Of a stretch of 64,000 nucleotides of DNA, positions 2,229 through 60,300 are shown in pieces. Made by a program: the position numbers and the translations under genes. The notes under the pieces were generated by a model that saw only the letters and a program-made list of their open reading frames with translations, was not told where the DNA came from and made no database searches. Source of the DNA: Bugula neritina (taxonomy: Eukaryota; Bryozoa; Gymnolaemata; Cheilostomatida; Bugulidae). Each line of letters begins with the position of its first letter. Within the stretch, counting starts at the first letter, position 1. The DNA lies in NCBI GenBank assembly GCA_964035545.1, contig OZ037769.1, forward strand, positions 357,001 through 421,000. Direction: 5' to 3'.

Positions 2229-5200
2229 TTATTTCTTTCCCTTCTTTGTCTTTTTCTTCTTCTGTTGCTGTTTGCTGGCAGAGTAGCCCTTGGAGGAAGT
2301 TCCCACAGGCTGGGACACCGACTCAGAAGTTGACGAGTCCATTTTTGTGATATCCCTACAGGAAATCACCATATACCAGATGTGTCATACACCAGATGTG
2401 TCATATACTAGACGTGTCATACACCAGATGTGTCATACAGTAGATGTGTCATACAGTAGATGTGTCATACACTAGATGTGTCATACAGTAGATGTGTCAT
2501 ATACTACATGTGTCATACACCAGATGTGTCATACACTAGATGTGTCATACACCAGATGTGTCATACGATATACAGAATATAAACTTACAACTCAGGACCC
2601 CCTGCCACAGTGGCTCCTTGGCTTCCTTTTCCTACAATACAATAACACTTGAAACAAAACACGACAATATGTTTATCACAGTAAGAGTGATATTCACCTG
2701 AACTAAAGATTACTACACGCTGACGTATCACTCAGTACAGGCCCTAGCAGTCTTGAAAGACCTACCTATGGCTTCTTTACGCTTATCCCTTCTGTGACCT
2801 TTATAGTTTGACCTCTCTCTCCGTGGCAACCAGCGCTCCGGGTTGGGGTCAACATCGGGATTGTAGTCTTTAGGCAGCTTCCCTTTTCTCTTGCGTTTAG
2901 ATTTCTTCTTAGATACTATCAGTACATCTGATCTACAAATAATCAGTGAGTACTAGTTACTATACCACTCAGTGAGTACTAGTAACTCTACCACTCAGTG
3001 AGTACTAGTTACTCTACCACTCAGTGAGTACTAGTTACTATACCACTCAGTGAGTACTAGTTACTATACCACTCAGTGAGTACTAGTAACTCTACCACTC
3101 AGTGAGTACTAGTAACTCTACCACTCAGTGAGTACTAGTTACTATACCACTCCGTGAGTACTAGTTACTATACCACTCAGTGAGTACTAGTTACTATACC
3201 ACTCCGTGAGTACTAGTTACTATACCACTCAGTGAGTACTAGTTACTCTACCACTCAGTGAGTACTAGTTACTCTATCACTCAGTGAGTACTAGTTACTC
3301 TACCACTCAGTGAGTACTAGTAACTCTACCACTCAGTGAGTACTAGTTACTATACCACTCAGTGAGTACTAGTAACTCTACCACTCAGTGAGTACTAGTT
3401 ACTCTACCACTCAGTGAGTACTAGTTACTATACCACTCAGTGAGTACTAGTTACTCTACCACTCAGTGAGTACTAGTTACTATACCACTCAGTGAGTACT
3501 AGTTACTCCACTACTCAGTGACTCAGTAAGCAACACTGCCAATAAATAACAATTACTTGTCAAATGTGGTTGCTGCTTTCTCTTCTTTCTTAGCCTTGTA
3601 TTTGTTAGCCAGGGAGGCAGACGATTCCTCCAAGGCGTCCACATCGATGGCCTCTGCTAGACTCTCGATAGATGGCAGTTCATTGCTTATTCTGAGAACT
3701 TGGGCTAAGGACATAACTTCAGACATTGTAACTCTATTGAATTAAATACACAAGTCAAGTTAGAACTCATTGTACAGTGTGCACTCAGGCAGAAAGGATA
3801 CTTCTTTGCTTTAGGTGGGTCAAACTGAGAATAGGCTGCAAAGAGCATGCTCAGCACATTCCGGTTGTCGGGAGTCAGCTTTCTCAACTTCTCCAGAAAG
3901 GAGGCAGCGACACGCGGGTTCTTCAGCTTCAGTTGGAACTCGGCAGCCGACCTCAGAATGTGCGGAAAAGATGTGCCGTTTCTCTATAGAATATAAGGAC
4001 TGTATTCACATGAGTACAGTCAACTACTGTAATCACATGAGTACAGTCAACTACTGTAATCACATGAGTACAGTCAACTACTGTAATCACATGAGTACAG
4101 TCAACTACTGCAATCACATGAGTACAGTCAACTACTGTAATCACAAGAGTTCAAGTAGCATAAAACACACTCATTTCTTCGTTTTCCACTAAACCAAAGA
4201 AAAAGTGAAGGTACACAATTACCTCATTTTTTTCATACCAGGAAATTACATCATCAAAGAACTCTGACACAGAATCGTCTGCTCCCTGACTCATGTAGAG
4301 GCTGACTAGTAATGACACCTAGAAGAGAATATCCAGTACACATGCACTTATACACAATAACATTATATGACAGCAGCTTAATGCTCACTGGAACTGCTAG
4401 ATGAGATAATATAGAGTAAAACTAACCAAATAAACTCAAATTTCAGCTCCTAATGAGTCACGTCGACTCAGACTAGCGAAATAATGTGGCTGGACTTACA
4501 ATGGCGGGCTTGTAGGTGACGTGCCCGAGTTTCCTGAGCACCTGACACACTTGAGACGTGTCTCCGAGGCTAAGGTGAAGGTTAGCCAGTGAAAACTGAA
4601 CACTTAGACTCAATTCCTCAGACTCGGTGACATGAGACTACAAACAAGAGCAGATCTTAGGCTATAAGGAGGAAGGACAACTCCACTCTAGCCTAGACCA
4701 ACATGGTGTTGAACAGTATGCTGACCTTGAGTAACTCGAGTGCTGTCAGCTGCTGCCGAGACTTCACCATCAAACTGCTCTCTATCAGCACGGCCAGGTC
4801 GGTTACGTCAGCGTACTTCTTCCTGAGAGTCTGGCAGAGGTTTCTACAGACATCTACCTGGTGACACAGTATATGTACAGGTAAGTATATATATACTGTA
4901 TAACATATAACACAGTACACATACAGGTAAGTATATATATACTGTATAACATATAACACAGTACACGTACAGGTAAGTATATATATACTGTATAACATAT
5001 AACACAGTACACGTACAGGTAAGTATATATATACTGTATAACATATAACACAGTGTATGTACTGGTCAGAGTGGTTACCTGGTCAGAGTGGTTACCTGGT
5101 TAGAGTGGTTACCTGGTTAGAGTGGTTACCTGGTTAGAGTGGTTACCTGGTTAGAGTGGTTACCTGGTTAGAGTGGTTACCTGGTTAGAGTGGTTACCTG

Positions 5201-8200
5201 GTTAGAGTGGTTACCTGGTTAGCGTGGTTACCTGGTTAGAGTGGTTACCTGGTTAGAGTGGTTACCTTGTTAGAGTGGTTACCTGGTTAGAGTGGTTACC
5301 TGGTTAGCGTGGTTACCTGGTTAGAGTGGTTACCTGGTTAGAGTGGTTACCTGGGTAGAGTGGTTACCTGGGTAGAGTGGTTACCTGGTTAGAGTGGTTA
5401 CCTGGTTAGAGTGGTTACCTGGTTAGAGTGGTTACCTGGTTAGAGCGGTTACCAGGTTAGAGTAGTTACCTGGTTAGAGTGGTTACCTGGTTAGAGTGGT
5501 TACCAGGTTAGAGTGGTTACCTGGTTAGAGTGGTTACCTGGTTAGAGTGGTTACCTGGTTAGAGTGGTTACCTGGTTAGAGTGGTTACCTGGTTAGAGTG
5601 GTTACCTGGTTAGAGTGGTTACCTGGTTAGAGTGGTAGGCCAGCAGACAATTATTAACGTCAATAGACTTGAGCTGAGAGCTGGTCAACTTCTTGGACAG
5701 CTCAGGTGCTGTCGCCAGTTTCATCTTCTTCTTGCTGTCGAAGACGTTCTGATCCTACAAACACACTGAGTAGTTGGTTTCTACATACAACCACAATCAC
5801 CAACACACCATGACTGACAGCCTGACTGACACCTCTGTCAGCTCATAGATCACGTTGACACATTTCCTGCTGACAGTGATAACCTCTGACCCACCTGGTT
5901 AATGGTGACGGTGTTATTGGCAGCGACAGCGGTAACAGTCATGTCACTCGGCTTATTCTTAAACAGAGAGTTGTAGATCTTCAGAGCTTCATCCGTCTTC
6001 CCTAACATCTGCATGCAGTAGGCCAGCTGAACCCTGGGATATAGAGTATAACACTGTGTTACCTAGCAATAGCTATTCTATCACATTCTAATGTGTTACC
6101 TAGCAATGGCTATTCTATCACAATCTAATGTGTTACCTAGTAATAGCTATTCTATCACACTCTAATGTGTTACCTAATAATAGCAAGCTCATCTTCCTTT
6201 TCCTCTTCAGTCATGTCCTCATCTTCAAGGCTTTCTTGGCACAATTCTATGCAAAGTATTACACTGTGTAGTAGAGAGTACACTGTATAGTACAGAGTAC
6301 ACTGTATAGTACAGAGTACACTGTATAGTAGAGAGTACACTGTATAGCACAGAGTACATTGTATAGTAGAGAGTACACTGTATAGTACAGAGTACATGGT
6401 ATAGTAGAGAGTACATTGTATAGTAGAGAGTACACTGTATGGTACAGAGTATTTACTAACCTATTGCCCGGGTGAGCTGTGATTGGGCAGCTTCGTAGTC
6501 TTTCTGACCAATCAGGAAGCAGGCAGCATTATAGCACCTGTCGGAGTTGTCGTCAGCAGCGTCTGGGGTTACCTGAGAACATGAGAGGAGAGATTGAGTT
6601 ATATAGACTGAGAGATTGAGTTATATAGACTGAGAGATTGAGTTATATAGACTGAGAGATTGAGTTATATAGACTGAGAGATTGAGTTATATAGACTGAG
6701 AGATTGAGTTATATATACTGAGAGATTGAGTTATATAGACTGAGAGATTGAGTTATATAGACTGAGAGATTGAGTTATATAGACTGAGAGATTGAGTTAT
6801 ATATACTGAGAGATTGAGTTATATAGACTGAGAGATTGAGTTATATAGACTGAGAGATACTCACGAGGTCAGAGGTCGAGTTGGACAAACTGAGCGCTGC
6901 CGATACAGCAGACACATTGATCTGTCTCTCGTCATCGTAATCATCATTAGAATTCTTAACAACCTCTTTATAGAGGTTAATGGCACCTTCATAGTCTTCC
7001 AGTCTGTACAGCTAGAAGAAAGAAGACAACTCTTAATAGAGAGTATATCATGTAAAGTACAAGTATCATCAACTGATACATTATATCTCATGAAACGGGA
7101 GAGAAACTTACCAGCTGAGCCAGTAACTCCTTTCCTCGCAGGTCCAGTTTATCAGCACCTCTGAGAGTGGCCAAGGCGTCCTCATTCCTATACAGTCTGT
7201 ACTCACAGTACGCCTTCTCAAACACCATGCCACTCAACGCCTCGCTGTACTTGTTCAGGATGTCCAAGGCATTCTGGAAGTTACTCAGTTGAATGAGACA
7301 CACCACTTTATATCTGGCAGCGTCCGACTCACCTGGCGCTGCCTTCAGAACTGCAACAACAGATACTCAAACTTCTGCACTCTCACTTTTTGATCAGGTA
7401 ATTTCAACAGATATAGTGACAGCAACCAAATATAATGGGTATTGTAGCTAGGCAGTAGACAAGTAAACATGACAATTAGCACTTTGTTCGCTGCCTTAGC
7501 TGCTAGCTGCCTTAGCTGTAGTCTATATAGTTTCTTATTCATGTACAAAACATTGTGAGGAGAGATGTTTGCTATTAGGACACAATAAACCCAATTATAC
7601 ATTTCAACAGAGTAGATTTGCTAGCTAGATGGCGTCATCACAGCTGGAGACAATACAATAATCATATTATTTATATACATAATCTGTAAATTTGTCTTCC
7701 CACTTTATTGCAATATACTACTGGTAATAAGGTGAACAGCTAGTACTTGACAATGTTTTTTTAATTTAATACCAAAAAAAATTAACTTCAAGTTGTTTGG
7801 CCAGAACATGTATAAAACGATAAGAATCACAACTCAATCTAAACAGTAATAGGTTATATCCATATTTTTCAACATAACTTGCAAGCACATTTGTATGTTA
7901 AGTAATTTACTACCCAAGGCATATAGGAAAAATTTCATCTAAAGATTATTAAGAAAATCCCTTATCAAGTTAGTTAACATAATGTTTAGAAAATTAAATA
8001 TGAATGAAAAAGCTAAACTAACATAAAATCACTTCCACATGCATCACGATCATTACTATTATGAAAACATATACAAACATAACTAAACGCTTTTGACTTT
8101 GAGTAACTTCGAAGTCTTGATTCCTAATAAAAGTGACACACAATCAGTGAATCACAATGCATATCAGTACGAGTATAAACTTCGCAATAACTATCTAGAC

Positions 8201-8577
8201 TGAAAATATTACAATCAGCATCACCATAACAGACTCAGACTGGGAAAAAAACAATATAACAATAAGTTTAACGTGAACATCATAATCAACAAATCTAAAA
8301 CTAAAAGTAAATGAAAATATTCGAATTTGATTACATTTAATTTTATCTTTAAAATGAAAATTGATCAAATAACATTAAAAGTCACAAGAAAAGGTTTATT
8401 ATTTTACTAAAATTAAAAAGCTGACTACTATAAAAATGAAGGTAATACTAATACTTAAATAAACTTACTAGATTCTGCTGTCTTGATAGCTTTTTCATAA
8501 TTTTGCGCATCACCACATCGCTTTAAATCAGCATAAAGGAGAGGCAAATTAGGTTGGTTTTGGCCGGGTTTTGCCAT
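2229..8577 (-). CDS. SRP72: Signal recognition particle subunit SRP72, complete
   Basis: Fifteen exons, in transcription order: 8577-8469, 7350-7112, 7011-6865, 6572-6461, 6246-6174, 6033-5895, 5754-5623, 4857-4726, 4637-4500, 4318-4223, 3983-3802, 3733-3557, 2932-2766, 2631-2589, 2355-2229. They sum to 2013 nt (670 aa, close to the usual ~670) with every phase matching. The start MAKPGQNQ is the only ATG before the first donor. The body is a TPR array (KVVCLIQLSNF, FEKAYCEYRLYRNEDAL, LYRLEDYEGAI, YNAACFLIGQKDYEAA, QLAYCMQMLGKTDEAL, DQNVFDSKKK). The 7SL RNA-binding tail has the family signature KGKLPKDYNPDVDPNPERW (exon 2932-2766), then KGSQGATVAGG and a Lys-rich terminus ending KKGKK. SRP72 works with SRP68 on 7SL RNA in ER targeting. 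Most introns carry minisatellites. Its start faces the prenylcysteine oxidase gene head to head. Confidence 0.96.
2374..2568. repeat. 16-bp minisatellite in the last SRP72 intron
   Basis: About 12 copies of a unit of the form tgtgtcatacaccaga (variants cacTAGA, cagTAGA), filling most of the intron 2356-2588. There is no clear copy of the splice sites in the unit. Confidence 0.85.
2945..3526. repeat. 26-bp minisatellite in an SRP72 intron
   Basis: About 22 copies of a 26-bp unit beginning agtgagtactagttacta (variants agtaactcta), filling the intron 2933-3556. The half-palindromic core gagtactagt/actcagtgagt could form hairpins. Confidence 0.9.
4007..4145. repeat. 27-bp minisatellite in an SRP72 intron
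   Basis: Five copies of a 27-bp unit with core catgagtacagtcaactact, inside the intron 3984-4222. The unit stays open in several frames, so it generates spurious ORFs on both strands. Confidence 0.85.
4867..5052. repeat. 46-bp tandem repeat in an SRP72 intron
   Basis: Four copies of a 46-bp unit containing acaggtaagtatatatat and actgtataacatataaca. The donor-like GTAAGT is on the strand opposite to the gene, so it is not a functional donor for SRP72. Confidence 0.85.
5057..5638. repeat. 17-bp splice-donor-spanning minisatellite (SRP72)
   Basis: About 34 copies of ggttagagtggttacct. Read on the minus strand, each unit is CACTCTAACCAG followed by gtaac. That is the last 12 coding bases of exon 5754-5623 (codons H-S-N-Q) plus the first five bases of its intron. 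The exon end itself is the outermost copy. Confidence 0.92.
6056..6178. repeat. 37-bp splice-donor-spanning repeat (SRP72)
   Basis: Just over three copies of a 37-bp unit. On the minus strand each has gctattactag followed by gtaacacatt, a near copy of the end of exon 6246-6174 (GCTATTATTAG) and its donor. The exon end forms the last partial copy. Confidence 0.85.
6265..6455. repeat. 19-bp minisatellite in an SRP72 intron
   Basis: About 10 copies of actgtatagtacagagtac and variants, filling the intron 6247-6460. Confidence 0.85.
6590..6857. repeat. 22-bp minisatellite in an SRP72 intron
   Basis: Twelve copies of a 22-bp unit with core agattgagttatatagact, nearly identical to one another, filling the intron 6573-6864. 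Confidence 0.9.
7351..8468. other. SRP72 intron 1
   Basis: About 1.1 kb of AT-rich intron between the first and second SRP72 exons. Unlike the other introns of this gene it has no minisatellite. No coding signal was recognised; the ORF at 7345-7602 only extends an exon into the intron. Confidence 0.7.
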
Positions 8578-8805
8578 AATGACACTGGTTGTGATGGTAA
8601 AGTAACTACAATAACTACCACTTTAACTTTATATGCAGGAAAAAGTTAACTTAAAGTAAATAGCAATGCGTTTCACTAAAAGTATAAGTGTGACTTTTCG
8701 CACAAATTGAAATGACAAATATCACAAAGTTGACCCTAGAGCCAGTGGCCAAGTCATCAATTTTGCCGTTGCTTCAGTTTTTTCTTTTCCGACTAACATA
8801 AATAG

Positions 8806-9132
8806 GCTTCCCAATTGAAAATTAGAATACTGAGGAACGCAGGCTATACAAAGTTTTACAAATTACTGAAATGGAATTGTATTCCACTCAAGGGTCACGA
8901 TTATTGCTTTTCATTGATACAAATGGCATTAGAGGAATCGCTAAGTTTAGTTGATAAACCACCTACATCAGAGATAATCATCTTGGGAAACCATGAAGTT
9001 GGTTCGAATTTTATGCTAGTATTTAAAGCACAAAGGCTAAAGGCAAAGTTCAAAGTTTACAGAGTTCAAAATGTCCACAAATGTGACAAGCCCAAGGTTA
9101 AACGAAATAACTTCATAAACATTATAAAGTAA
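8806..9132 (+). CDS. Unrecognised ORF in the SRP72/PCYOX divergent promoter
   Basis: An open frame of 109 codons from the stop TAG at 8803-8805 to TAA at 9130-9132. It has no ATG near its 5' end; the first Met, within SLIQMALEES, lies about 43 codons in. A possible acceptor (aaatag) sits at 8805. The protein is not low-complexity: it reads KFYKLLKWNCIPLKGHDYC, then MALEESLSLVDKPPTSEIII, and ends in a basic stretch. The PLxGHDYCFSLI segment faintly recalls the catalytic loop of OTU-type cysteine proteases (GDGxCxF), but the match is weak. It ends only 30 bp before the PCYOX start codon. It may be a decayed transposon-derived fragment, a small gene or chance. I assign no function. Confidence 0.3.
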   Translation, partial: ASQLKIRILRNAGYTKFYKLLKWNCIPLKGHDYCFSLIQMALEESLSLVDKPPTSEIIILGNHEVGSNFMLVFKAQRLKAKFKVYRVQNVHKCDKPKVKRNNFINIIK

Positions 9133-9162
9133 TCAAGCATTTAACCGGTTAAATACCTCAAA

Positions 9163-12100
9163 ATGAACATAAATTGTGCAGTCGCGGTGGCTATCCTTAA
9201 TGTTGCTATTGTAAATTCACAGTTCACTTCATTTTTTGATGATATTGACGTGCCAAGAATAGGTTAGTTTTGTAACTATTTGAATTTGCAATACTTATAC
9301 TAATAGTAATACTATTACTAATAGTAATACTAATACAGTAATACTAATAGTAATACTAATAGTAAAACTAATAGTAATAGTAATACTGATAGTATTAGTA
9401 TTACTGTAGATGTAGTACTTATAGTTAAACAGTTATACTAGAAGTCAAAGTGATGGTGATACTTGATACTTAGTTATAGTTATGCTCATACTGATACTCA
9501 TAGTCATAGTAATCATATAGCAATAACTATGAGTCGTAGTTGAACTTAATGTTATATGATTACTATGAGCATCAGTATGAGTAGGAATAGTCATAGTAGT
9601 ATATTGCTGTGGCGTGTGAATATGTGTTAGTTTAAACATTATAATATTAAAATTAAATATTGTTAAACAATTATAAAAATTTTATTAATAATAGATATTA
9701 TAACAGTGAAAAACATAATTGAAATTATCTTATATTTCTTATACAGATCTGATGATTATAAAGCAGGTAGGTTATATTATTGTAGAATGTTTAAATAGAT
9801 CAGGTAGACAGGTTTGTGTGTTTCTGTTTTAGCGATAGTTGGGGGTGGAATAGGGGGATCCACTGCTGCCTATAAACTCAGAGACTTCTTCGGAGAAGCT
9901 TTGACCACTCTAGATGTCTATGAGAAAGACAAAATTGGTGGCAGATTGAGAACCATAAATATAGATGGGGAAGAGTACGAGACGGGTGGTAGTGTGATAC
10001 ACCCCGCCAATCAGCACATGATCGAGTTTACTAAACTATTAGGTCTGAATATCCTTTTAAGTTTTGGTCGTTAGCTGTGCTACTGTGTAACTACTTTAAA
10101 TGTGTTAGCTTTACTCTGTCAGACTTTTACATGAACTTGTAAATATATGTTTACATCTTGTGACTGGACTTCCTGCCTACTGACTGCATCAACTAATCCA
10201 TGAACATCGAAATATTTCACGCAGTCTCAGCTGACCCAGCATTTCTACATTTAATCTACGAATGCAGGGTTGAGTGAACGACCCGATCAAGGCGATGGGT
10301 CATTCGCCATGTTTGATAGAAGTACAAAGGTCTTTGAGCCGTCAAGAAACTCCTGGGTACAAACTTTGCAGTTGCTATGGCGATATGGCTGGAATTTGCT
10401 TACCATGCAGAGATCAACTAACAACTTCCTTCACGACTTCAGCAGGCAGGTCATGTGATGTGACAGTATGTGATGTGACAGTATGTGATGTGACAGTATG
10501 TGATGTGACAATGTGTCATGTGACAGTATGTGATGTGACAGTATGTGATGTGACAGTACTACTACTCAACTAGTCTTTGTTAATAGTATTACAGGTTGAT
10601 CATGTGACTTTGTTTCTCAACTTCTGTTGCGATTCTCAAGCAAGTTTGCCGAGTAGTAGAGTCTAAGTATATCTGTAGCTTGTGTGTGAAGAGTAAAGTG
10701 TAGTGCAATAGTGTAACTGATAATATGTTATACGATATTACATCTCATTGCAGTTATATAACATAATACGTACAATATATATGATATAAGAGGTATAATA
10801 TATATAGTATAATACATACAATATACAGGATTTACAAGTGGCAGGATGAACACCAGTCATTCACGACTCTCCCCAACCTGCTGCTGTCAATGTCTGATGA
10901 CATCATGAACGCCACTCAGCTGTCTCTGCGTCAGCTCATGGCCTCGCAGGGGATCTCACAGAAACTGGTAGATGAGCTGGTTTTGTCAGCGTGCAGAGTG
11001 AACTACGGTCAGACGCCAGACAACCTGCACGCTCTAGTGGGTAGGTGTTACCTCACAGTACTGTACCTACTTAGTGTAGCATACTCTAGTGGGTACGTGC
11101 TACCTCACAGTACTGTACTTACTTAGTGTAACACACTCTAGTGGGTACGTGGTACCTCACAGTACTGTACTTGATATAACACGCTCTAGTGGGTACGTGT
11201 TACTTCACAGTACCATACTTACTTAGTGTAACACGCTCTAGTGGGTACGTGTTACTTCACAGTACCATACTTACTTAGTGTAACACGCTCTAGTGGGTAC
11301 GTGTTACCTCACAGTGCTGTACTTACTTAGTGTAGCACACTCTAGTGGGTACGTGTTACCTCACAGTGCTGTACTTACTTAGTGTAACACACTCTAGTGG
11401 GGACGTGTTACCTCACAGTGCTGTACTTACTTAGTGTAACACACACTAGTGGGTACGTGTTACCTCACAGTACTGTACTTACTGTAGCACACTCTAGTGG
11501 GTACGTGCTACCTCACAGTACTGTACTTACTTAGTGTAACACACTCTAGTGGGTACGTGTTACCTCACAGTGCTGTACTTACTTAGTGTAACACACTCTA
11601 GTGGGGACGTGTTACCTCACAGTGCTGTACTTACTTAGTGTAACACACACTAGTGGGTACGTGTTACCTCACAGTACTGTACTTACTGTAGCACACTCTA
11701 GTGGGTACGTGCTACCTCACAGTACTGTACTTACTTAGTGTAACACACTCTAGTGGGTACGTGTTACCTCACAGTATTATACTTACTCAGTGTTTTCTAG
11801 GCTCAGTGTCTGTGGCTGGAGCAGACCCTGGCTTATGGGACGTGAAGGGAGGCAACTACAAGGTTGCAGAGGGGCTGTTACAGAGGTCTAAGGCTAACAT
11901 TATCTCCTCAGCTGTGGTTAAGATAGTCAACTCTACTGTGGAGAGGTCGCGGCCCCTCTACTCTCTCCACTCTGCTGACGGCAGCGTCAGGCAGTATGAT
12001 GCGGTGATCCTGGCCTACCCCTTCATTGTCGGCCAACCGTCAGTTGAGTTCTCTGGTTTTCTTACGGACTTTAGGGAGCTGCACCGCCGGTTCCACCATC

Positions 12101-12573
12101 TCTTTGTCTACATCGTGAAAGGAACTCCCAACTATAAGCACTTCGGCTTCGACAGTCTAGACGACATGCCAGAAATTATCTTCCCACTAGAGTCAGTGCC
12201 TTTCTACAATCAGATTTCCCGCATATACCCCGTCAGCGGTCTTCCTTCATCCACTCCTGTCTACAAAGTTTTCTCTTCCGGTAAACTCTCTCAGGACGAG
12301 TTGAATCTCCTCTTCCTCTCTCGCGAGTTGACGGAAGTTGTGGAGTGGATGGCCTACCCCCAGTATTCCGACAGCATGGAGTTCACCCCCTTCGTCTTGG
12401 CTCCCAACTTGTACCACGTCAACGCCATAGAGCTGGCAGCGTCAGCCATGGAGATGTCAGCAATTGGGGCCGTCAACGTGGCCAACCTCCTCTATCATCA
12501 CTCCCTAGGTAACAGTCACCGTGTGGACAACATGTTCGTGATTGAAGAGAAACATCTCAAGATGGAGTTGTAG
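9163..12573 (+). CDS. PCYOX1: Prenylcysteine oxidase, complete
   Basis: Exons 9163-9262, 9833-10042, 10268-10445, 10829-11040 and 11801-12573 sum to 1473 nt (490 aa; vertebrate enzyme ~505). Residues 1-20 are a signal peptide (MNINCAVAVAILNVAIVNSQ). The FAD Rossmann motif AIVGGGIGGSTAAYKL is at 34-49, followed by VYEKDKIGGRLRT and ETGGSVIHPANQHM. Later family blocks are RIYKWQDE, RVNYGQTPDN, AGADPGLWDVKGGN, and IELAASAMEMSAIGAVN near the C terminus. Known role: a secreted or lysosomal FAD thioether oxidase that releases cysteine, an aldehyde and H2O2 from prenylcysteine. The junction 10445/10829 needs a GC donor (AG|gcaggt) to keep frame and give the conserved RIY. PCYOX1 versus PCYOX1L cannot be separated. 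Confidence 0.93.
9293..9415. repeat. Trinucleotide-like (TAA/TAG/TAC) simple repeat in PCYOX intron 1
   Basis: A degenerate run of taatagtaatactaatagta triplets. Similar triplet runs recur at 57680-57760 and 61140-61600. Confidence 0.8.
10447..10560. repeat. 15-bp minisatellite at the PCYOX exon 3 donor
   Basis: About seven copies of gtgatgtgacagtat directly after the exon 3 donor. The first intron bases (caggtcatgtgatgtga) resemble the unit, so the array probably grew from the donor region. Confidence 0.85.
11032..11788. repeat. 52-bp splice-donor-spanning minisatellite (PCYOX)
   Basis: About 14 copies of a 52-bp unit whose core ctctagtgggtacgtgttac copies the end of exon 10829-11040 (CTCTAGTGG) plus its donor gtaggtgtt. 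The array fills the whole intron 11041-11800. Blocks at about 11330-11490 and 11520-11690 are nearly identical to each other, which indicates a higher-order duplication. Confidence 0.92.
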
Positions 12574-12992: not shown

Positions 12993-12998
12993 AATAAA
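12993..12998 (+). promoter_or_regulatory. Polyadenylation signal of PCYOX
   Basis: AATAAA about 420 bp after the stop codon, in an AT-rich tail. Confidence 0.5.
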
Positions 12999-14089: not shown

Positions 14090-15060
14090 ATGAGAAGCCT
14101 GTTGGTTGTAGGAGCTCTGCTCCTTGGTAAGTTTTACAGAATATTCTGTGTGAATTATGAGACATACTCTAAGGAAGTGTCAAGCAATGAGAATTTTATT
14201 TAAACTAAGATGAAACGGCTGTCTATCATAAGAATGCAATATGGTTACTAGGTACTATATATGATATAGAAATACTTCTACTAATGAAAACATGTACAGT
14301 GTGAAAACTCTTTGTAGGCACAATTATAGCATAAAAAATTATTTTCTGAGGTACATTAACATATACATTTTATTTGTCAAAAAAATCATTTTTAACAGTT
14401 CTTTATTAATTTAAAGATTCCATTGCACTGATATTTCAAACCAGTCTTATCCATGTTCATTTAAAATAAAAATTGTAATGTATATAACTATATGTTGCTC
14501 TTTGTTGAATTTCAATTATTAGCAATCTTAGATCGTTTTGATTATGAAATGAAATAATAAAGCTTTGTGATTATGAAAATATTATAATCAGCTGAATGAT
14601 TTGAGTAAACAATTGAGAACTATCGACAGTAAACTAACAATAGTTTGCTCAAGTGAACAGTAAATGTCCACTTGAGTATTTCGGGCTCCTTCTTTATGTT
14701 GATATATTGACATAAAATTTTGAGTTATATTTGAGCTCGAATTGATGAAGTCATATTTGATAAAATGAAAATATAACAATGCCTTGTTTTAGTTGCTATA
14801 TGCTGAATTGATTTAAAGCGATGCAATAATGTTTTTTGTGAATTTGCAGCGGTGAACGTCACAACTTCACTCAAGTGCAAAGGTAAAGCAAACTTGTTGG
14901 AGTTTTACAGCACGGCTTGTAAACATAATGGTCACCATGGTGATCCGGAAGAAGATCAGTCTTGTCTGGTGGAAACTCGTGACGAACTTGATAGACAATG
15001 TGAGACGGATGACGCTTGTACTGTAAGAGAATAGCTATATTATATAAATTATATATATAA

Positions 15061-15154
<94 letters not shown>

Positions 15155-20040: not shown

Positions 20041-31835
<11,795 letters not shown>

Positions 31836-48300: not shown

Positions 48301-51300
48301 AGCCTACAGCGGCGTTATGTTTCGTAACGAGAAGCTTAACTCTAAACTCAATAATATAATAAGTAATTAAAGCACTTGTATATAAATACTCTATTGTAAT
48401 GGTTTTGTTTAATTGATTACATGTTTTCCAAGTATTGCAAATAATTAACTCCTGTGGATTAAAATAAGAGTTCATTGTTTTCACAACTACAGTTTGCACC
48501 CAGTCGATCTTTTATATTATATTAAATAATTAAAACACAGAAAATGACTAAAATTTTAATATAAATTAATTATTGTGTTGGAAAGGATAAGCCTAATATG
48601 AGTAGTGGCCAGGTGATCTTATCAACAGGTGATCTTATCAACAGGTGATCTTATCAACAGGTGCTGATGACCAGAGAAACTTTGTTATTTATTTATACAA
48701 TAATTTATTGCTCTGTGCCAACTTGAGAGAGGAGCTTTAACATTATAGAATGTCATCTGCTTATTTGTGACAGCTGATTGAGTCACAGAGTATACATACT
48801 CACAGTGCGGGACGGGCAGGGGCGTACCCAACTGTTGGCACAGATGTGTGAGGCTATGTCATCTTTAGGAAAACTGCTATTTCCTCCTCCAAACACGTAA
48901 ACAATCCCTTGTTCCACTGAAAATATTATAGTACAGTACAGTAGTATAATATAGTATAGTGCAGTACAGCGTGTAATATAACATAATTATAATATAACAT
49001 AGTAGCCTAAAATACAGTACAGTACAGTAGTATAATTTAGTATAGTACAGTACAGTGTGTAATATAACATATAATATAACATAGTAGCCTATAATATAGT
49101 ACAGTATAGCGTGTAATATTATATATATAACATATAATATAACATAGTAGCCTATAATATAGTACAGTACAGCGTGTAATATTATATATATATATAGAAT
49201 ATATCATATAACATAGTATAAAGTATAGTATAGTATGAAAGTTTGCCTAAAATCAGCTTCATCAACAGATACACAGTAATATGCAATGTTTAACCAAAGT
49301 CCATCATTTCAGTTTACCACAGAGTAATAACTTAGACCTGTGGCTACTTAATACCCCCACTATGAATAACACTTGGTTGATAGTCTGTAATACCAGCTCT
49401 AATTCAATTAACCTCCCATAAACCAGTCAGTTAGTGAGGGGGGGGAGGGAGGTTGTAGACTGACTGATGACAAAGAAGAGGTGATATATTGTCTAATTAT
49501 ATAACCAGAAATCTACCAGTTGAGAGAAAGTGACCTTATTGACCCCCCCTAATGACCAACGGTCAACCAACTAACAACCTCAGTAATGACGAAATACCCT
49601 TACGTAAAACTCAATTAACAAATTGATATGAAACGTAAGTTTTGTGGGAACTTTGATTGATTAAAAAGTAAAAAAAATATAATTTAACTTATCCATCCGT
49701 GTTGTATAACTGTTGTGTAACATCTCTGTAGGGTGGTGGTGGTGTGACATATACAGAGAATATACAGATAATATACAGAGAATATACAGATAATATACAG
49801 ATAATATACTACTAGCTTGGTTTACTTTACAGAACAATAAGTTTCTCTAAAGTCAGACTCAACCAACCAGTCTACCAGGATACACAAGTGAATCCTCTCA
49901 CCTCCGTAGAGCAGTGCGGTTGGGTCATCCGTGAAGTGAGGGGCACCCACAATCAGTTCATCTTTTCCGTTAGAATCCAAATCTACAAACTATACAGGAA
50001 ATGATGTAAGCGCATGGCTACGACAACAAAGTTTTCACCAGCTATGATTGGCTGGATGAGTCACGTCAAGTAATTATACGATGCAGAGTATCAGCTCTCT
50101 CACACATACTTCTATATGATTATTTGAAATTAAAAAAAATTAAATTTCACGATTGTAAGTCATCTGCTCCTTATTTCAGTCATTTTGGTATTTAAAACAT
50201 GACCTTGATATATGTCTGAAAACTGCTATGAAGATTCTGTGACCCCCACCTTGAGGGCAGCGGAGAAGAGAGAGAACTGTCTGTCAGCGTGTAAGACAGC
50301 GTCGGGCTGACAGCTGCTGCCTCCCTCAATCAGACAAGAGAGATTGTACACATCCACTGCTCCAGCTTGACTCAGGTGGACATCGTAACCAAACACACTG
50401 CCATTCACATCTGCAGCAGGAAATAATAGAGATATTAGTCACTAACTTATGGAGAAATGGACAGTAATTCAGAGTTATTCTCTCCTGATTTTGTGGAGAC
50501 AACTTTAAACAAGTACTAATTGACTTTAACACCCACCTACACTGTCTCTCCCAACAGCCAACATGATTGGTCCAGACAACCCAAAAGGATGACCAATAGA
50601 AAAGCTGCTGCCGAAATGCTCGTGTTCGGCTGTTCCCTCTATCTGTCGCAGCAGACGCAAGTCTGGCAGACTCCAGACGGTCAGCTGACCAACTGATTGC
50701 GTGTCTCTCACGGAGAACGTGCAGTTTGAACTGAAAGAGAGAGAAAGAGAGTAGGGCTACAGGCTATTCAAAGAGCGAGAGAGAGAGGGAAAGAGGGAGG
50801 GAGAATAGGAGCAGAGGCTAGACACGAGTTCAACTTACAAGGCACAGTTTCTACGGATAGGAGCTCCGACTATCAGGACAGGATTGTAAGGCGAATCGGC
50901 CACGAGTAAACGACTTCCGAACCAGCTGTTGTTGGCCTCCACCTTCGTGTAATAATATAAACATATAAAGTATGTAGAGGATGGCGTATAGTTAGTAATA
51001 TAAACATATATAGTATGTATAATATAGTGTATAGTTTGTAATATAAACATATATAGTATAGTGTATAGTTTGTAATATAAACATATAAAGTATGTAGAGG
51101 ATAGTGTATAGTTAGTAATATAAACATATAAAGTATGTAGAGGATAATGTATAGTTAGTAATATAAACATATATAGTATGTATAGGATAGTTCACAACAG
51201 GAAACACTAGTAATTACTCACCCCGGGACCCCAAATACACTTCCATGTGGAGAAATCAAATGCCTTGGAACTCAGAACAAAGCACACTTTGCCAGACTGG

Positions 51301-54300
51301 GGTCCGGCACCAGTTGGCCCAGTACCGGTTGGTCCAGCACCGTTTGGACCAGCGGACTCTGAGTATGGAGAGTATGGTGAACCAACGACTAGATCATCAA
51401 ATCCGTCTCTATTAATATCTGCAGCTAAGAGGGTTGTCCCCTCGTTATCATACAATGGCTGCAAAAGTGATAGAGGGAACTATTTGAAATACCTTCGATT
51501 CACTACAAATAATTAACTCATGATAAATGTCAACTTTATGATAGAAGATTCAAGCCAAAGATAGATCAAGCAGCAGATTACTTGATGAGAGAGAACCACT
51601 ACAAGTAAAGTTTCAAAGTTTCGAGGGAGTTTCAAAGTGAAGTCATTTAATTTAACTCAGTTTAGAATAACTGATAAGTTGTATCTTTAGTTAACTCTTT
51701 GACATAAATCAATCAACAAAAAGGTCGCAATAATAAAATCCAACTTCAAATAGGAAAGTTTGCATCAGTGAGCTCTGGAGTTAGATTATACGAGTTAGAC
51801 ATCAGTGAATACTGACTGAAGAGGATAATGAAGGAAACTTACTGCATGTTGGTCTCTCTGGACCATAGAGGGTTGGTCACTGAACGTACCGTCTTTATTG
51901 CCGAACCAGATGGACATCCCACCCTAACAACACACACAGCATTATACAGCTTTACCTTGAAGTGACATTGAGCTAGCTCACAGATATGCTATTTGTGAAG
52001 GAATGTAGATCAACTTACAGTATACGTGAGATTTGTCCAGCCCAAGTTGGGAGAGCTAACAACGATGTCTTTATATCCGTCTAGATTAGCGTCCAGTACG
52101 GCGACAGCAGAGCCAAACCTGCCCGCCTAGCAGCAAATATTAGCATATAATATCTACTAAGTTATGCTACAGGCACTATAACCTAACACAGATACCATGC
52201 ATATATATAAAGTATACTGAAATATACATACTACAACATACTATAAATAGAAAAGTATACTAAAATATACTACGACATACTATAAATAGAAAAGTATACT
52301 AAAATATACTACGACATACTATAAATAGAAAAGTATACTAAAATATACTACGACATACTATAAATAGAAAAGTATACTAAAATATACTACGACATACTAT
52401 AAATAGAAAAGTATACTAATATATACTACGACATACTATAAATAGAAAAGTATACTAAAATATACTACGACATACTATAAATAGAAAAGTATACTAAAAT
52501 ATACTACGACATACTATAAATAGAAAAGTATACTAAAATAAACTACGACATACTATAAATAGAAAAGTATACTAAAATATACTACGACATACTATAAATA
52601 GAAAAGTATACTAATATATACTACGACATACTATAAATAGAAAAGTATACTAAAATATACTACGACATACTATAAATAGAAAAGTATACTAAAATATACT
52701 ACGACATACTATAAATAGAAAAGTATACTAAAATATACTATGACATACTATAAATAGAAAAGTATACTAAAATATACTACGACATACTATAAATAGAAAA
52801 GTATACTAAAATATACAACGACATACTATAAATAGAAAAGTATACTAAAATATACAACGACATACTATAAATAGAAAAGTATACTAAAATATACTATGAC
52901 ATACTATAAATAGAAAAGTATACTAAAATATACTATGACATACTATAAATAGAAAAGTATACTAAAATATACTACGACATACTATAAATAGAAAAGTACA
53001 CTAAAATATACTACGACATACTATAAATAGAATAGTCTACTAAAATATACTACGACATACTATAAATAGAAAAGTATACTAAAATATACTACGACATACT
53101 ATAAATAGAAAAGTATACTAATATATACTACGACATACTATAAATAGAAAAGTATACTAAAATACTAACGGAGTTTGAAGCTCCTCTGAGGGTTACATTT
53201 GCCAGATCCTCAACTCGGAAGTCACCTTCTGGGAGACCTTCTTTATGTCCTGCATGTGTATTATTATATTATATAATATAATGTAGCGTTACATTTTATT
53301 TTATTATATTATATAATATAGCATTACATAATACATTATTATACTATATAATAATTTATTAATCTGAAGGACCAATGAGATTGAAAGAATAACTCACCAT
53401 ACAAGATGAAGACTGCCCCTGCGTAGTTAGTAGTGACGTTGTGTGGGTACATGGGTGAAGATATCACCAGGTCTTCTATTCCGTCGCTGTTCACGTCCGC
53501 TGAGAGAAGCACGCTGTGAAATTAACCGAGATAAAAACACAAATAAATGTCAAATAAGAAAGAGGGGCAGCTGTGAATAAGAGGGACACACAATTACAGA
53601 GTGCTAAGGCTATAGAGCAAGGAAGAAGGCTACAGATATTACAGTAAGCTTAGACAATGTTTTGACGGAGTGAATTCTCAAATAAAAGCTGGATGGAAAA
53701 TGTCGTAGAATAAATAAAAATTTAATTTTGATGCAATAAAACAAGAATAAAATAAGAATGGTTTGTAAAAATAGGCTAAAATGCTTTAATAAAGCAAATA
53801 ATGAAGGAAATAGAGGACTATTTTTAGAGTTGTTCCCCCACAAGAGATGAGAGGGGGCAACTCCAAACTATACAGACTACTCACTGGCCTAGCCTGGCAT
53901 ATGGCCACTTTGTAGATATTACGGTGCGAGGAGACTCTGCTTTCCTACTCTCTTTATGTTGTTTAGATCTCAGTCTTAATCTTCTTTGCTTTTCCACGGC
54001 ATTCTAAACAATGTTAATACCAGTTTGCTAATGGCCGTTCATCATTCTAAATATCAGAGAATATCGCAGCAATATAACTTATAGTAATCTTACAACAGTC
54101 ATACCTTAGCAGCAGTAGGTTTGAGTTTAAATATTACACCGTGTTTCGTCTTTTGTACTTTCATATCACCAGCACTGAGGCTATGCTTTAGAGACAGACT
54201 TGGAGGCTCTAAGGCTGGTTGCCGCGATGTAATTTCCTTAGTTACGGGCGACAACAGAGCGTGCTTGTACTTGTCACATCTGATGTACAGAGGGTTGTCA

Positions 54301-57300
54301 GGGGTCGTGCAGTTGGCACTATCGAAGACAAAACGGTAAAAATGCCCTATATTGTATAGAAAACAAATTCATAATGTGAGCAACCGCATAATATATAACT
54401 TTATATATTTGTACTGAAACATTGAGTTGAAAATAATGCAAGAAAATTGCATAAGAAATTGGCTAAGTCTATTCACATGGAATTGTCATTATCACAGAAA
54501 CACTTGATTCTACCCTTCTCCATGGGTAAAGTAACACATATTTTTGCTTGAAAGTATTTGTTTCAATTCCAAAGATATAAATCAAGTCTTCCAGACATAT
54601 AAATGAAATCGTGTCGCACTATAAAATGTTAGCTGAAGAAACTGGGAAACTAATTCTAAGAGTGACGGAGGGGGGGGGGGAGGAGGGGGTCACAATCACC
54701 AACTCAACTCTATATTAGTGATGCATATCAGTATACCACAGCGTTTGTTCAACTGATAAACTAGTTTCATTAAATGCAGAGAGTTTCAACCGAAACTGTA
54801 CTAGTTTTAGTGAGTAGTCTACAGTATTAGTGAGTAGTCTACAGTACTAGTGAGTAGTCTACAGTATTAGTGAGTAGTCTACAGTATTTATCAACATCAA
54901 TAATAAAGTAATACAATTGGAAGATCAACAGTATTTACTAGTTGAAGTGAATAAGTTAATATATTTAAGACTGGAGACCTGAACCCATGCTCGAGGATGT
55001 AGATGACGTTGTCCCATATACGGGTGGTCCACAGTGCCATGTCGTACAGACCACCCAGGAAGAATGTGTCCAGATTCTGAGTCAGAAATGGACTTTTAAC
55101 AGCAGTCTGCTCATAAACCTACAAAACGGAACATGACCTATATATCGTGTGACCTATATATCACTATGACCTATATATCCTGTGACCTACATATCACTGT
55201 AACCTTCATATCCTGTGACCTATATATCACTGTAACATATATACTACAACTCATCATCATTACTGTATACTATAACTCATCACTAATAAAATATTGTTAA
55301 TCAAAAAATGTATGAATAAAATAACTTTAACAGAGAGATTAAGTGTATCAGTATTTATTACAACTGCTGCTTATATAGAGCAATGATTTCAATACGCCAG
55401 CCATCACTTTGCTTTAGGTCCCCCAATCACCTAGCTTTAGGTCCCCCAATCACCTAGCTTTAGGTCCCCCCCCCCCCCCCCCCCCCGTGTTTATTATTAA
55501 TACATTACTGATGTCTTAAAACTTTAGAGATATAAAACTTTCAAGTATAATTTTGATGTCACAAAATAACAGTTTCTAACAACAAACCTTGCCAAGAGCA
55601 ATCTTTTCTCCCAATCTAAAATAAAGAAGACAACTTCTCAGATATAAAGAAATAAACTCAGCAATGCTCAGAGAGATGTGGGTAAAGAGTATATATGACT
55701 AGAGAGGAAATATGTCACTCTGGGCCCAGGTTGATGAACTCTTTCACTGTATCACGTACTACATACTCTGTTTCTGTCTTATAATACATTATAAGCGCAT
55801 GTGGTATCTACACTGCTAGGAATATGAGGTACTTACAATGCTAGGAATATGAGGGACTTACACTGCTAGGAACATGAGGGACTTACACTGCTAGGAATAT
55901 GAGGGACTTACACTGCTAGGAATATGAGGGACTTACACTGCTAGGAATATAATGGACGTACACTCCACAATGACTTCAGTTGGCATAGTTTCAGAGTTAT
56001 TGTAGTAAAGTTGGTAGATGTTAGCTAAATGGGTGACTGGAATATACCTGGTAAACAAAACAGAAAGCAAGTAAAGACTTTACTACATAAACTATACATT
56101 GTTTATGACGGTGAAATACTAGACAGACGTGCAGTGAGCATAGATGGCCCATCTCAAAATATTTAGTACACACAGAAAATTTTTTTCAAAAAATAAAACT
56201 TGTAGTAGAAAGCTCAAACTTTGTGATACGGGTAATTATTAGGTGCTGAATTCAAATATGAGATTATTTTATTGCCATAGGTGCTTAAACTTGACCTTTA
56301 ACCTCTCAAAAGTCCGCAGTCCAAAAAAATGGTGAAATATGAATGTTTATATTTTAATAAGCAAAACATGGTTTTAGACTAATATAAGGGCTCTGAATTC
56401 AAAAATAATACTAGTTTTTATCTGTGATAGACATATTTATACCTTTGGCTCTATAAAGTGAACACCAAAAAAAATTTATTAAAAATATTGCAGCATAAAG
56501 AGACAAAAGTTTTATGATTGGTTTTAAACAGAATGACTTTATTTTGGAAAATAATTTTCTACAGACTAAACTTTTAAAATTGACAGCATATGCATACAGC
56601 AGGTGCCTTTCCAAACCACTTATGAGGTAGGCTAATAGCTTGTTAGTTTTTTGTATAAATTGACAGTTCACCAGTAGTCCTATTATATCGAGTACAAGAC
56701 ATTCACACAAACAAAATGCATGCACAAAACATAAAATATTGTCAACAAACCATGAAATACATATTCACTAACACACTTCCTTCTAACTTATCTACACTCA
56801 CATCTCCTCCTACAAAAAACAGTAAGACAAATTATAGAATGTTTGCTAATGTTGATGTACACATTTAAACTTTCATCATTATTTCACAAGTAGCAGTTGC
56901 AGAAACCATGTGAGCTTGAGCTGATGTTATTGCAGCCCTCTCAATATTTTGCTAGTTGTAGGAGTAGATTGTTTAGTCTACATTTCTATTGTACTGGCTT
57001 CATCGTAAGATTCATCTAAACTTAATTAAGCTGTATATTTCAAGTATGATTTTTATTTTAATCGCTCTTCTGAACTTTCAATTTGTCTATACTTGTTCAG
57101 ATGTTGACATACCCCTCAGTTGTTGCTTCCTTCTCTCTTGCTGCTCTTCAGACCACTGCTTTTTTCTGATGAAGCATGGCTCCTAGCAGTGGACTGTTGC
57201 CTGGTCTTGAAAGGCATGAAACTATTCTATACAATATAAAAACTAAAATATATGAGTTTTTTAGTTTGGTAAGCTATTGAGACTAATGCTTAGAAGATGA

Positions 57301-60300
57301 GGGTTAGCTATAATCTAAGTTATTGGCTATTAATAACTTAATGAATAAGATAATGAAACTAAATAGTTGCAAAACAAGAGCTAGCCTTCAGAATAAAGTT
57401 GTATTTAAATTGACTATTAGCACGTTACAAGCTATTACACTATTGACAAGTTGTTAGCAATGATTAATTTGCTTAAGTACCCGTAGCGTACATGTCCGTA
57501 GTATAACTTACTCATTCAACTTAAACCTAAGGAGCTAATCCAAATCACTATTATGTACTAAGTAGATATATTAACATATTATTATTAAAGCAACTTATTC
57601 TTAAATTTCTAATTAAATTAAATTTATCAAGTGCAAACTATAAAAAATGCCAATAAGCAGGGATCAAGCACTCAGAGTGAGAGTAGTAAGAGTAAGAGTA
57701 ATCACTTAATGCTTATGTTATTAAGAAAAGTAATACTAATAGTAATAGTATTAGTATTGGTAATATCATATTGAGTTCAATATCATTACACTTACAGTTT
57801 GAATTTACACATCGCAGTTTACAATATTCAGTATTGACTATTGAATTCAAAATGAATCATTAAATGGTGAATGGCTACAATTTCAATTTGAATTTTAAGT
57901 TGCTGATCGCGGCAATAAAAGTTTTAGTTGAATATAAATTATGGCAATTCAAAACTAAAGTCTAAATACGCAAGTGCAATTTAAACTTAATGCATTAAAA
58001 AGTTATTTACTTAGTTATTTAGTTCTTATTTCCCAATTATCATTAATTTTAAATTATTAATAATAGAAATGTTATGATAAACTTAAAGAGTTACTCGTTA
58101 TCGTTATGATTGGGATTATCATTGTAAGAATTGATAAAACAAAAGAATGAAGCCTTAGAGAAAAATTGACTGAAAGTTATATTGTTTGATAAATATAAAA
58201 AGTTATGAGAAGTTTGGAAAAATACAATGAATACTAACCTGACGAAATAAATGAAAACTAAACCGCTATGCCATCAGATCATTTTCTTGGCAACAAACCG
58301 GATGCGCTACTATACTCTAAATTCTAGAGGTTTCAAGATGACTTTATTTATGAAAACAGAATTAGATTACTGTGTAATTATTTTATACTTACGAACAAAC
58401 AAGATGAAAATATATTTATCGTTGTAAAAAATAAGTTTGAGCAAAATAATGAAATTTAACTAATTTATTTGAGAGTGTAAACAGAAAGCGTTAGCAATTT
58501 CGTTCTCACGTGCTCATACTCAATTTACGGACAATTGTTGCGGACAAAAAATTCGTGAGGTTGAAACACTAAAACAGGAATATCTAAACTTGTACCGCTA
58601 GGAATTAGACATTCAGCACACCAAGAGATTGACAAGCTTTTTTAGAACAGTTTAAGGAAAAAAATATAATCATAATATATGTTTATAAAAAAATTATGCT
58701 ATGTCAAAGTTGAAATGTGTTACCCACTGAATTTATTTTTCAGTGGGTAAAATTTAAAAACTTGTCATTTTTTCAATAAAAAATGCATAATATAGCTTAA
58801 ATATACTAATTTTATAATAAATTAAAATGTTTTTTATTCTGGGACACAGTGAGTTCACATATTTGAAGCATCAGAGAGCTAGACAACATCATTTTTGAAA
58901 ACCTGTCCTTATTTTGCACTGTACTAATTATTTTGAGATGAGCCAGATATGGGAGTAATCTCCCCTGACTAACAGTACATACATACCACTGCTGATAATG
59001 AAGGTAGGAGTAATCTCCCCTGACTAACAGTACATACGTACCACTGCTGATAATGAAGGTAGGAGTAATCCCCCCTGAACTCATTCACCACGTCACCTCC
59101 AAAGTCTGCAGCAGAGTGAGCCGTGTCATAGACACCGTGGAAGTCTACCTACAGTTAGGTGAATAAATCTAGGTCAGCAAATCTAGGTCAACAAAGGGCA
59201 GTGGGCATACTATATCTTTAGGAAGAGAAGTTATAGGGACGGAGAAAAAGAATGAAGGTAGGAAAAGCTGCTAGGGAAGACAGGAAATGAGAAAGACTGA
59301 AAAATGCGAAGTCCTTCTGACAAATGATGAGAGAGAGAAAGATAGGCTATAAGTCAAGGAGAAACACAAGCTGACTTCTTTATCTCAACTAAAAATATCT
59401 GCTGTAAAATACTCAAAGCTGAGATAATAAATAGAATACAAGTAAAGTGTTTCCCGTATGACCTTGAACTTCTAATGCGCTGAGTATCAATAAGCAGACT
59501 CACAGCGGCCATTGTTCTGATGAATCCTTGTCGTATGCCCAGACTGTGCCAGGAGACGTCTGCAACTTGGTGAGAGATAAAGCCGAGCACAAACACTACT
59601 AGTTTCTCTGTTTCCTGTAAGTAAAGAGTGTAAATGGAATCACTGCACAGAACGACTCTCTTCGTGATCAATGCTGAATAAACATAATTCTACCAAAAAC
59701 ATGCATGTACTTTTCTTATAGCAATTTTTCTCAGTGCAAAAATTATAAAACGAATAAAATTGAAAAGGTATATGCAATTATAAGTGGAAACTAATATCTG
59801 ATTTATAGTAAAAAGAAACATAATATGCATATTGACAAGTGAAGTGAATAGGAAAGAAAAGTGTGACGCACCTCCGTCCAGGGGGGTGGGAAGTTGTCAC
59901 GGATATATTGCAGCGTGACGTTAGTAAATGCCGTCCAATGACTGTCTTCGGATGTGACTCTGTATTTACCTTAGCAACAAACATACATGTCCTTAGCAAC
60001 AAACACACATATCCTTAGCAACAAACATACACAACAGAAAACCTTTCGACTTTAGATTCGTGCAACTGCTGCAACAAAAGTTAAGTGAAGGAAGCAACTC
60101 GACTCCTTTTCTACTAAATGTGAATCAAACTTCCACTTACTATTAAAACAGACGCTGCCGTAGTAAGTGTCGGGGTAAGTATTTCCAGCCTGGAAAGCAT
60201 CTTGGTGCTTTAGAATGAGCTGCAAGTAGTTCAGTGAAACATCACATTTCTAGTTGGCGGATTTCTTAGAACGAATTGACTGAGAGTGAATACAACTATT

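Follow-up and report, generated by a model that had tools for sequence, protein, structure and literature searches.

Intronic minisatellites that include splice boundaries in the bryozoan Bugula neritina: about as expected by chance at donors, rare at acceptors

Minisatellite-like tandem duplications of exon–intron boundaries, called mirages, have been described in the Adh3, globin, TnC and PGBD5 genes of amphioxus, where the available excerpts of the reports mention regular splicing and unstable lengths (PMC3087553, PMC3902484). Here we describe comparable arrays in one window of 64,000 nucleotides, C5:357001-421000, from the genome of the bryozoan Bugula neritina. The copy of the genome that was analysed has 215.8 Mb in 295 contigs, and the consulted part of the genome note for tzBugNeri2.1 gives 216.00 Mb in 320 scaffolds (PMC11480708). 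Short tandem repeats have swelled many introns, and the boundary is included about as often as expected by chance at the start of an intron and rarely at its end. As in amphioxus, to the extent that the excerpts describe it (PMC3087553, PMC3902484), the units span the boundary at either end of the intron and many copies carry AG/GT signals. The Bugula arrays have the structure by which mirages are defined, since both boundary types are hit (14 donors and 3 acceptors in the window and a wider sample). They are a new and dense case of this known phenomenon, with a new quantitative asymmetry between donors and acceptors. They add a further phylum to it, in which 64 kb hold ten cases. Unlike the amphioxus cases, they lie among many intron arrays that do not cross a boundary and were tested against a null, and donors far outnumber acceptors. 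Regular splicing and length instability belong to the amphioxus reports, whereas the Bugula arrays are known from the DNA sequence of one haplotype (the alternate haplotype is deposited as GCA_964035465.1). A broad-term search of part of the literature found no report of boundary-spanning arrays in bryozoans, and one directed at sponges yielded nothing.

Other systems share some of these features. In humans, tandem repeats with longer units (minisatellites or variable number tandem repeats) are GC-rich and denser toward chromosome ends (PMC7608644, excerpt), and segmental duplications contain internal tandem repeats with units of about 30 bp, which at exon–intron boundaries may form novel introns (PMC2812944, excerpt). 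In contrast to the human repeats at chromosome ends, the Bugula arrays are AT-rich (unit GC 0.339) and were sampled at low-coordinate ends only. The human segmental duplications concern change between recent paralogs, whereas the Bugula arrays concern conserved genes with lengthened introns. Intron gain by tandem duplication of AGGT has reportedly been proposed by Rogers, by Venkatesh, by Zhuo, and by Gao and Lynch (cited in PMC3087553). The Bugula arrays resemble that process in being tandem duplications over splice signals but give no evidence of a created intron.

A sequence-only reading of the window had named ten arrays that copy splice sites in about ten introns of five genes. Arrays were called with Tandem Repeats Finder (TRF), whose 92 rows reduced to 61 non-redundant arrays totalling 9,981 bases, or 15.6% of the window; the longest is 956 bases. 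Exon models were made by script and checked by reading frame and homology, which gave 68 exons and 61 introns. Intron arrays with a unit of at least 10 bp number 38, and at least one occurs in 31 of the 61 modelled introns. Boundaries are crossed by ten arrays (8 donors and 2 acceptors, one acceptor by a single base). These are exactly the ten named before, and TRF reports an array overlapping a splice site at every one of these places. The genes that hold them are six rather than five: SRP72, PCYOX1, a Cys-rich secreted-looking protein, protein kinase C (PKC), a TSP1–trypsin gene and GPI-specific phospholipase D (GPI-PLD). The ten arrays are as follows.

5062..5636, minus strand: 17-bp unit, 33.8 copies, over the donor of SRP72 exon 7 (exon low end 5623, 14 exonic bases)
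6055..6184, minus strand: 37-bp unit, 3.5 copies, over the donor of SRP72 exon 5 (11 exonic bases)
11028..11793, plus strand: 52-bp unit, 15 copies, at the donor of PCYOX1 exon 4 (exon end 11040), stopping 7 nt before the next acceptor
17205..17345, plus strand: 46-bp unit, 3.1 copies, over the acceptor of the last exon of the Cys-rich gene (exon start 17325, 21 exonic bases)
26616..26953, plus strand: 30-bp unit, 11.3 copies, over the donor of PKC exon 4 (exon end 26638, 23 exonic bases), in the second C1 domain
43063..43223, plus strand: 36-bp unit, 4.5 copies, over a donor of the TSP1–trypsin gene (exon end 43066, 4 exonic bases)
47327..47408, minus strand: 20-bp unit, 4.1 copies, over the donor of GPI-PLD exon 21 (10 exonic bases)
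55809..55964, minus strand: 25-bp unit, 6.2 copies, over the donor of GPI-PLD exon 6 (28 exonic bases)
58952..59078, minus strand: 55-bp unit, 2.3 copies, over the donor of GPI-PLD exon 5 (37 exonic bases)
59969..60031, minus strand: 22-bp unit, 2.9 copies, one base past the acceptor of GPI-PLD exon 3, with AG in the unit

The PCYOX1 array has 7 exonic bases by the TRF row that starts at 11034, and TRF also gives it a period of 204 bp. In PKC exon 4 the open reading frame continues through the array.

Whether ten crossings are many depends on the length of intron against which they are counted. In our null each array was collapsed to one unit, and the unit was placed at random over all positions touching the intron. 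Collapsing is needed because the target of a duplication is the intron in its earlier state, prior to growth of the array. On collapsed introns 10.7 crossings are expected in the window for the 38 intron arrays, against the 10 observed. The impression that the window departs from chance holds for the abundance of arrays and not for their coincidence with boundaries. With present-day, uncollapsed intron lengths the expectation falls to 4.8 in the window (P = 0.011) and to 10.5 against 17 observed overall (P = 0.022). This apparent excess arises because the array itself lengthened the intron, and it is the likely source of the earlier impression. Counting repeats against present-day intron length thus produces a false boundary excess, a warning for similar surveys.

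The comparison was extended to 280 kb from seven chromosomes, in pieces of 10-64 kb counting the window, with exons predicted by a small gene finder trained on the window models. With one gene left out at a time, at early settings, the finder overlapped 60 of 68 exons, with 38 exact and 20 false predictions. At the settings used, and on its own training genes, it recovered 59 of 68 exons exactly and overlapped all 68, with 105 exons predicted in all. Self-training was tried and dropped for poor recall in the window, so the window-only model was used. In that run the finder bridged intergenic DNA until the cost terms were changed, and the later drift probably came from block B3, which is mostly one repeated gene. 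The sample added seven boundary-crossing arrays to the ten of the window, and for all six that cross donors Pfam matches support the gene (three arrays in AIP3, two in BTB-BACK and one in cullin).

In the combined set of 87 arrays, either boundary was crossed 17 times against 21.2 expected, so that comparison with random placement revealed no enrichment for splice sites. Collapsing only the array in question, and not its neighbours in the same intron, gave an expectation of 19.2. The two ends of the intron differed. Donors were crossed 14 times against 10.6 expected (P = 0.16) and acceptors 3 times against 10.6 (P = 0.0025). The ratio of 14:3 (binomial P = 0.013) is a comparison that needs no intron-length null. 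In a strict set of 56 arrays the corresponding values were 14 against 8.3 for donors (P = 0.024) and 2 against 8.3 for acceptors (P = 0.005), a ratio of 14:2 (binomial P = 0.004). The depletion of acceptor crossing is present in both the window and the sample; in the sample alone donors were crossed 6 times against 5.3 and acceptors once against 5.3 (P = 0.019). Arrays lying just inside a donor numbered 10 against 6.5 expected among the 87, and those just inside an acceptor 15 against 6.5 (P = 0.0013), the latter carried by the window (12 against 3.1). Of the 28 intron arrays of the window that do not cross, 16 end within 15 nt of a splice site, against 5.6 expected. In introns with a collapsed length below 150 nt, donors were crossed 8 times against 7.8 and acceptors once against 7.8, and in those of at least 150 nt donors 6 times against 2.8 (P = 0.06) and acceptors twice against 2.8.

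These results bear on the proposal that the duplication is directed at splice boundaries, for example by breakage or template switching tied to splicing or to exon ends, so that units would be boundary copies by origin. The excess on uncollapsed introns and the donor excess in longer introns would agree with such a process. No excess is seen on collapsed introns, and below 150 nt there were 9 crossings of either boundary against 15.6 expected. The boundary has no fixed place in the unit, since the exonic share is compatible with a uniform distribution (Kolmogorov–Smirnov P = 0.71, n = 14 donor-crossing arrays of the strict set). The units are mostly unrelated, 28 of the 38 intron arrays of the window do not cross, and acceptors are avoided rather than copied. 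A directed process, as first put forward, is improbable on these data.

Our data are more probably explained by ordinary minisatellites that arise by random local tandem duplication in and around introns, in array-dense regions, and are filtered by selection on splicing. Minisatellites would be born at essentially random places. As introns would have been short until arrays expanded, any random duplication that touched one and spanned a few tens of bases would often take in a splice boundary. Selection would largely remove arrays from exons. Arrays that cross a donor would survive, as the copy next to the exon would retain an intact reading frame and donor, and later expansion would lengthen the intron. 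Splicing usually selects as acceptor the first AG that follows the branch point. Because of this, an array across an acceptor would put a working AG upstream and add the repeat to the mRNA; the upstream duplicated AG would be used first, and most such arrays would be lost. We infer that birth is random and that selection lies behind both the asymmetry and the scarcity of arrays in exons. The asymmetry is read here as splicing selection acting on random tandem duplications. This offers a simple reason, namely that short introns receive random duplications and splicing filters them. It also offers a measurable rule, that 5' splice sites tolerate duplication and 3' splice sites do not, which can be tested in any minisatellite-rich genome. 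The earlier suggestion that arrays lengthen introns without harming the exon fits the donors; at acceptors, crossing is depleted in a way that looks like selection.

The distribution of arrays between introns and exons was examined by circular shifts. Arrays occupy 21.9% of the bases in introns, 9.0% of intergenic bases and 4.2% of those in exons; none of 5000 circular shifts reached the intron or the exon share. Few array bases are exonic: 461, where the shifts gave 1,666 on average. Introns with arrays have a median length of 469 nt, which falls to 218 nt when arrays are collapsed, close to the 207 nt of introns without arrays. Tandem expansion has therefore lengthened introns, as had been proposed from the sequence. 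The same figures bear on the idea of intron gain, in which tandem duplication of AGGT-type proto-splice sites would have given rise to these introns. GPI-PLD exon 6 would suit it, as one whole unit of the array at 55809..55964 is coding and the intron opens with exon-like copies. Collapsed array-bearing introns are as long as array-free ones, and in 13 of the 14 donor-crossing arrays the unit is longer than its exonic part. Creation of these introns by duplication is thus very improbable.

Arrays are unevenly distributed along the chromosomes. The array share near contig starts was 30.5% at 0.40 Mb of C3, 26.3% at 0.40 Mb of C7, 16.0% at 1.0 Mb of C1, 15.6% in the window, 12.8% at 0.40 Mb of C6 and 2.6% at 1.0 Mb of C2. 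In the interiors it was 4.4% at 6.0 Mb of C2, 2.2% at 6.0 Mb of C4, 0.9% at 8.0 Mb of C5 and 0.8% at 6.0 Mb of C1. Array density is higher at the six places near contig starts (up to about 1 Mb away) than at the four interior places (one-sided exact P = 0.0095; low-coordinate ends only were sampled). Introns with an array number 31 of 61 in the window, 17 of 36 at 1.0 Mb of C1, 8 of 13 on C7, 5 of 7 on C3, 0 of 3 on C6 and 2 of 119 at 1.0 Mb of C2, and in the four interior places 2 of 35, 4 of 23, 1 of 25 and 0 of 4. Exon density does not explain the difference on C1, where the block at 6.0 Mb has 32 strong exons in 50 kb and few arrays, and the block at 1.0 Mb has 42 and many. The process had been thought genome-wide; in an even sense it is not, as density is mostly high near contig starts and low inside. 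The sampled contig starts may be true chromosome ends, and the array-dense regions are probably near chromosome ends, although a search of the assembly for five perfect TTAGGG repeats (30 bases, no mismatch) gave zero matches.

Several observations weigh against random birth followed by selection. In introns of at least 150 nt collapsed length donors are crossed more often than expected (strict set, 6 against 1.9, P = 0.009), and some donor preference beyond geometry is possible. The units are rich in TA/GT-type sequence, and 12 of 123 arrays contain the word GTAAGT or its complement, with 12 occurrences where 2.1 are expected; this enrichment may help donors to act as seeds. The accumulation of arrays just inside acceptors is not seen in the sample alone (3 against 3.5 expected). 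The place at 1.0 Mb of C2 is array-poor although near a contig start (2.6%; 2 of 119 introns), and the C6 place has arrays in 0 of 3 introns. The exons of the sample are predicted, not curated. Three settings and several measures were tried, and the P values are uncorrected for many tests. Some of these points would suit a bias at birth, in which GTA-rich donors seed tandem duplication and selection against acceptors explains only part of the asymmetry. The enrichment of TA and GT/AC dinucleotides and of GTAAGT in units, and the donor excess of the strict set, are consistent with it. Words without the donor core, such as AGTATA and CTATAC, are enriched as much or more, and the donor excess is not significant in the full set. 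A bias of this kind is unlikely, although it keeps some weight, and filtering of random duplications by splicing is the explanation that we prefer.

The use of the exon-adjacent donor can be judged from conserved proteins, and the genes concerned are as follows.

2229..8577, minus strand: SRP72 gene; 15 exons, 14 introns, 7 introns with arrays
9163..12573, plus strand: PCYOX1 (prenylcysteine oxidase) gene; 5 exons; matches an ancestral PCYOX1 structure (PDB 9fxq_A, E 8.8e-93)
14090..17495, plus strand: gene of the Cys-rich secreted-looking protein with a Thr/Ala repeat exon; exon model in two parts
20041..31835, plus strand: conventional-type PKC gene (two C1, C2, kinase); 15 exons; matches PKC beta (8se2_A, E 1.3e-268)
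38593..44264, plus strand: gene with a TSP1-like exon, then a trypsin-like protease; matches factor X-like proteases
45369..60382, minus strand: GPI-PLD gene; 22 modelled exons; search for the 5' end unsuccessful

Among the relatives listed, the best for SRP72 and for GPI-PLD come from another bryozoan, Watersipora subatra (62% and 55% identity). Coding sequence aligns without a gap across the exon-adjacent donor junction in six of the eight donor arrays: two in SRP72, those of PKC and PCYOX1, and GPI-PLD 58952 and 55809. For SRP72 6055 and for PCYOX1 the alignment has a gap of one residue shortly upstream of the junction, at a distance of a few residues. At GPI-PLD 55809 an earlier donor-like word within the exon is evidently not the conserved exon end. 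At the junction at 43063 in the trypsin-like gene the alignment is a weakly scored stretch with a one-residue gap, so that the choice of copy is weakly supported, and the GPI-PLD array at 47327 lies in an alignment gap against Watersipora. The sequence-only reading held that the copy nearest the exon always fits the conserved protein. Homology is informative for six donor arrays and agrees with this in all of them; the "always" follows almost from geometry, because the copy joined to the exon is the one that is read as exon.

Donor strength was measured with a nine-base score trained on the donors of the window itself. Most downstream copies in donor-crossing arrays keep donor-like sequence that scores as strong as the first copy, in agreement with the earlier view that the copied boundary would keep a splice signal. 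In the SRP72 array at 5062..5636, 33 copies were found, and CAG/GTAACC is present in 28 of the 32 downstream copies. Exceptions are the PCYOX1 array, in which the first donor is GTAGGT and further copies read GTACGT (12 of 14, slightly lower score) or GGACGT (2 of 14, no GT), GPI-PLD 47327, where GT is lost in 2 of 4 copies, and GPI-PLD 55809, where 1 of 5 further copies is weak. The first donor is presumably the one used in RNA. It is suggested that inner donors seldom matter for the protein, because only 3 of the 14 donor-crossing units of the strict set are multiples of three, no more than by chance. A rather doubtful extension is that in array-rich genes many 5' splice sites stand in a row and compete, as with the 33 copies of one SRP72 intron, that most of them remain near full strength, that 3'-crossing arrays are removed, and that array length acts as a fast-changing splicing switch. 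If so, use of an inner donor at the in-frame 30-bp unit of PKC would add copies of 10 residues to the second C1 zinc finger.

A 12-mer is common to only 20 of 7503 pairs among the 123 arrays of the window and sample, so the units are mostly unrelated. They do not form the near-identical dispersed sequence of introner-like elements, and an origin from mobile elements, considered through unit relatedness, was rejected. Ten of the 12 listed pairs (of the 20) link to AATACT-type arrays at 9290-9405 and 61444-61598, and two do not. Relative to flanking DNA, the units of the same 123 arrays have more TA and GT/AC steps and fewer AA/TT steps, and their GC content is 0.339 against 0.356.

The arrays might also be artefacts of assembly, with repeats collapsed or stretched. 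The consulted part of the genome note gives PacBio HiFi reads at about 132-fold coverage and a quality value of 53.7 (PMC11480708). The arrays reach at most 956 bases in the window and 1,660 bases in the sample, against a mean read of about 9.7 kb by our own division of the totals in that part of the note (PMC11480708), and variants are present among the copies. An artefact of this kind is hardly credible.

In the strict set the median length is 312 bases for donor-crossing arrays and 134 bases for intron arrays that do not cross, a difference for which we have no explanation. Some arrays of the window that do not cross a boundary come close to one, several of them filling an intron; examples are as follows.

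2943..3521, minus strand: 26-bp unit, 22.3 copies, filling an SRP72 intron, 10 nt inside the acceptor
4864..5054, minus strand: 46-bp unit, 4.2 copies, in the same SRP72 intron as the array at 5062..5636, ending 6 nt inside the acceptor of exon 8
6260..6451, minus strand: 19-bp unit, 10.1 copies, filling an SRP72 intron except for 9 nt at the donor and 13 nt at the acceptor
6588..6858, minus strand: 22-bp unit, 12.3 copies, filling an SRP72 intron except for 6 nt at the donor and 15 nt at the acceptor
23955..24830, plus strand: 22-bp unit, 39.8 copies, in a PKC intron, 9 nt inside the donor
52209..53164, minus strand: 39-bp unit, 24.4 copies, taking up the greater part of a GPI-PLD intron to within 5 nt of the donor

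Three arrays lie wholly in modelled exons (15591-15806, 27772-27807 and 51301-51353), and their units of 18, 12 and 15 bp are all multiples of three.

Some gene models carry uncertainty. SRP72 exon 12 begins 42 nt too early in the model (a 14-residue insertion against Watersipora), and its start is probably 3691 rather than 3733, as the alignment suggests. The junction of SRP72 exons 8 and 9 is uncertain, with a 5-residue gap against Watersipora. Neither fault adjoins an array, and the counts were kept with the original model. In the Cys-rich gene the join of the two halves (15241-15572) is not settled and was left out of the introns in the crossing tests; two pieces of its protein gave no Pfam match. 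The TSP1-like label in the gene at 38593..44264 is a name that we assume from reading alone. In PCYOX1 a microexon was weighed and dropped, as it would break the frame. Intron 3 of this gene (10446-10828) has an apparent GC donor, AGCAG/GCAGGT, the sole non-GT donor among the modelled introns of the window.

Two predicted genes of the sample are themselves repetitive. Most of C2:1,000,001-1,050,000 is a single predicted gene with 115 exons, the larger part of which repeat a module of two exons (214 and 251 nt) and introns of about 144 and 237 nt. The best self-match is at 846 bp, and the protein resembles what we take to be repeated LDL-receptor class A and Cys-rich domains. In C1:6,000,001-6,020,428 a large extracellular protein is predicted, in which a 5-kb repetitive exon is followed by Cys-rich segments that are presumably TSP1-like.

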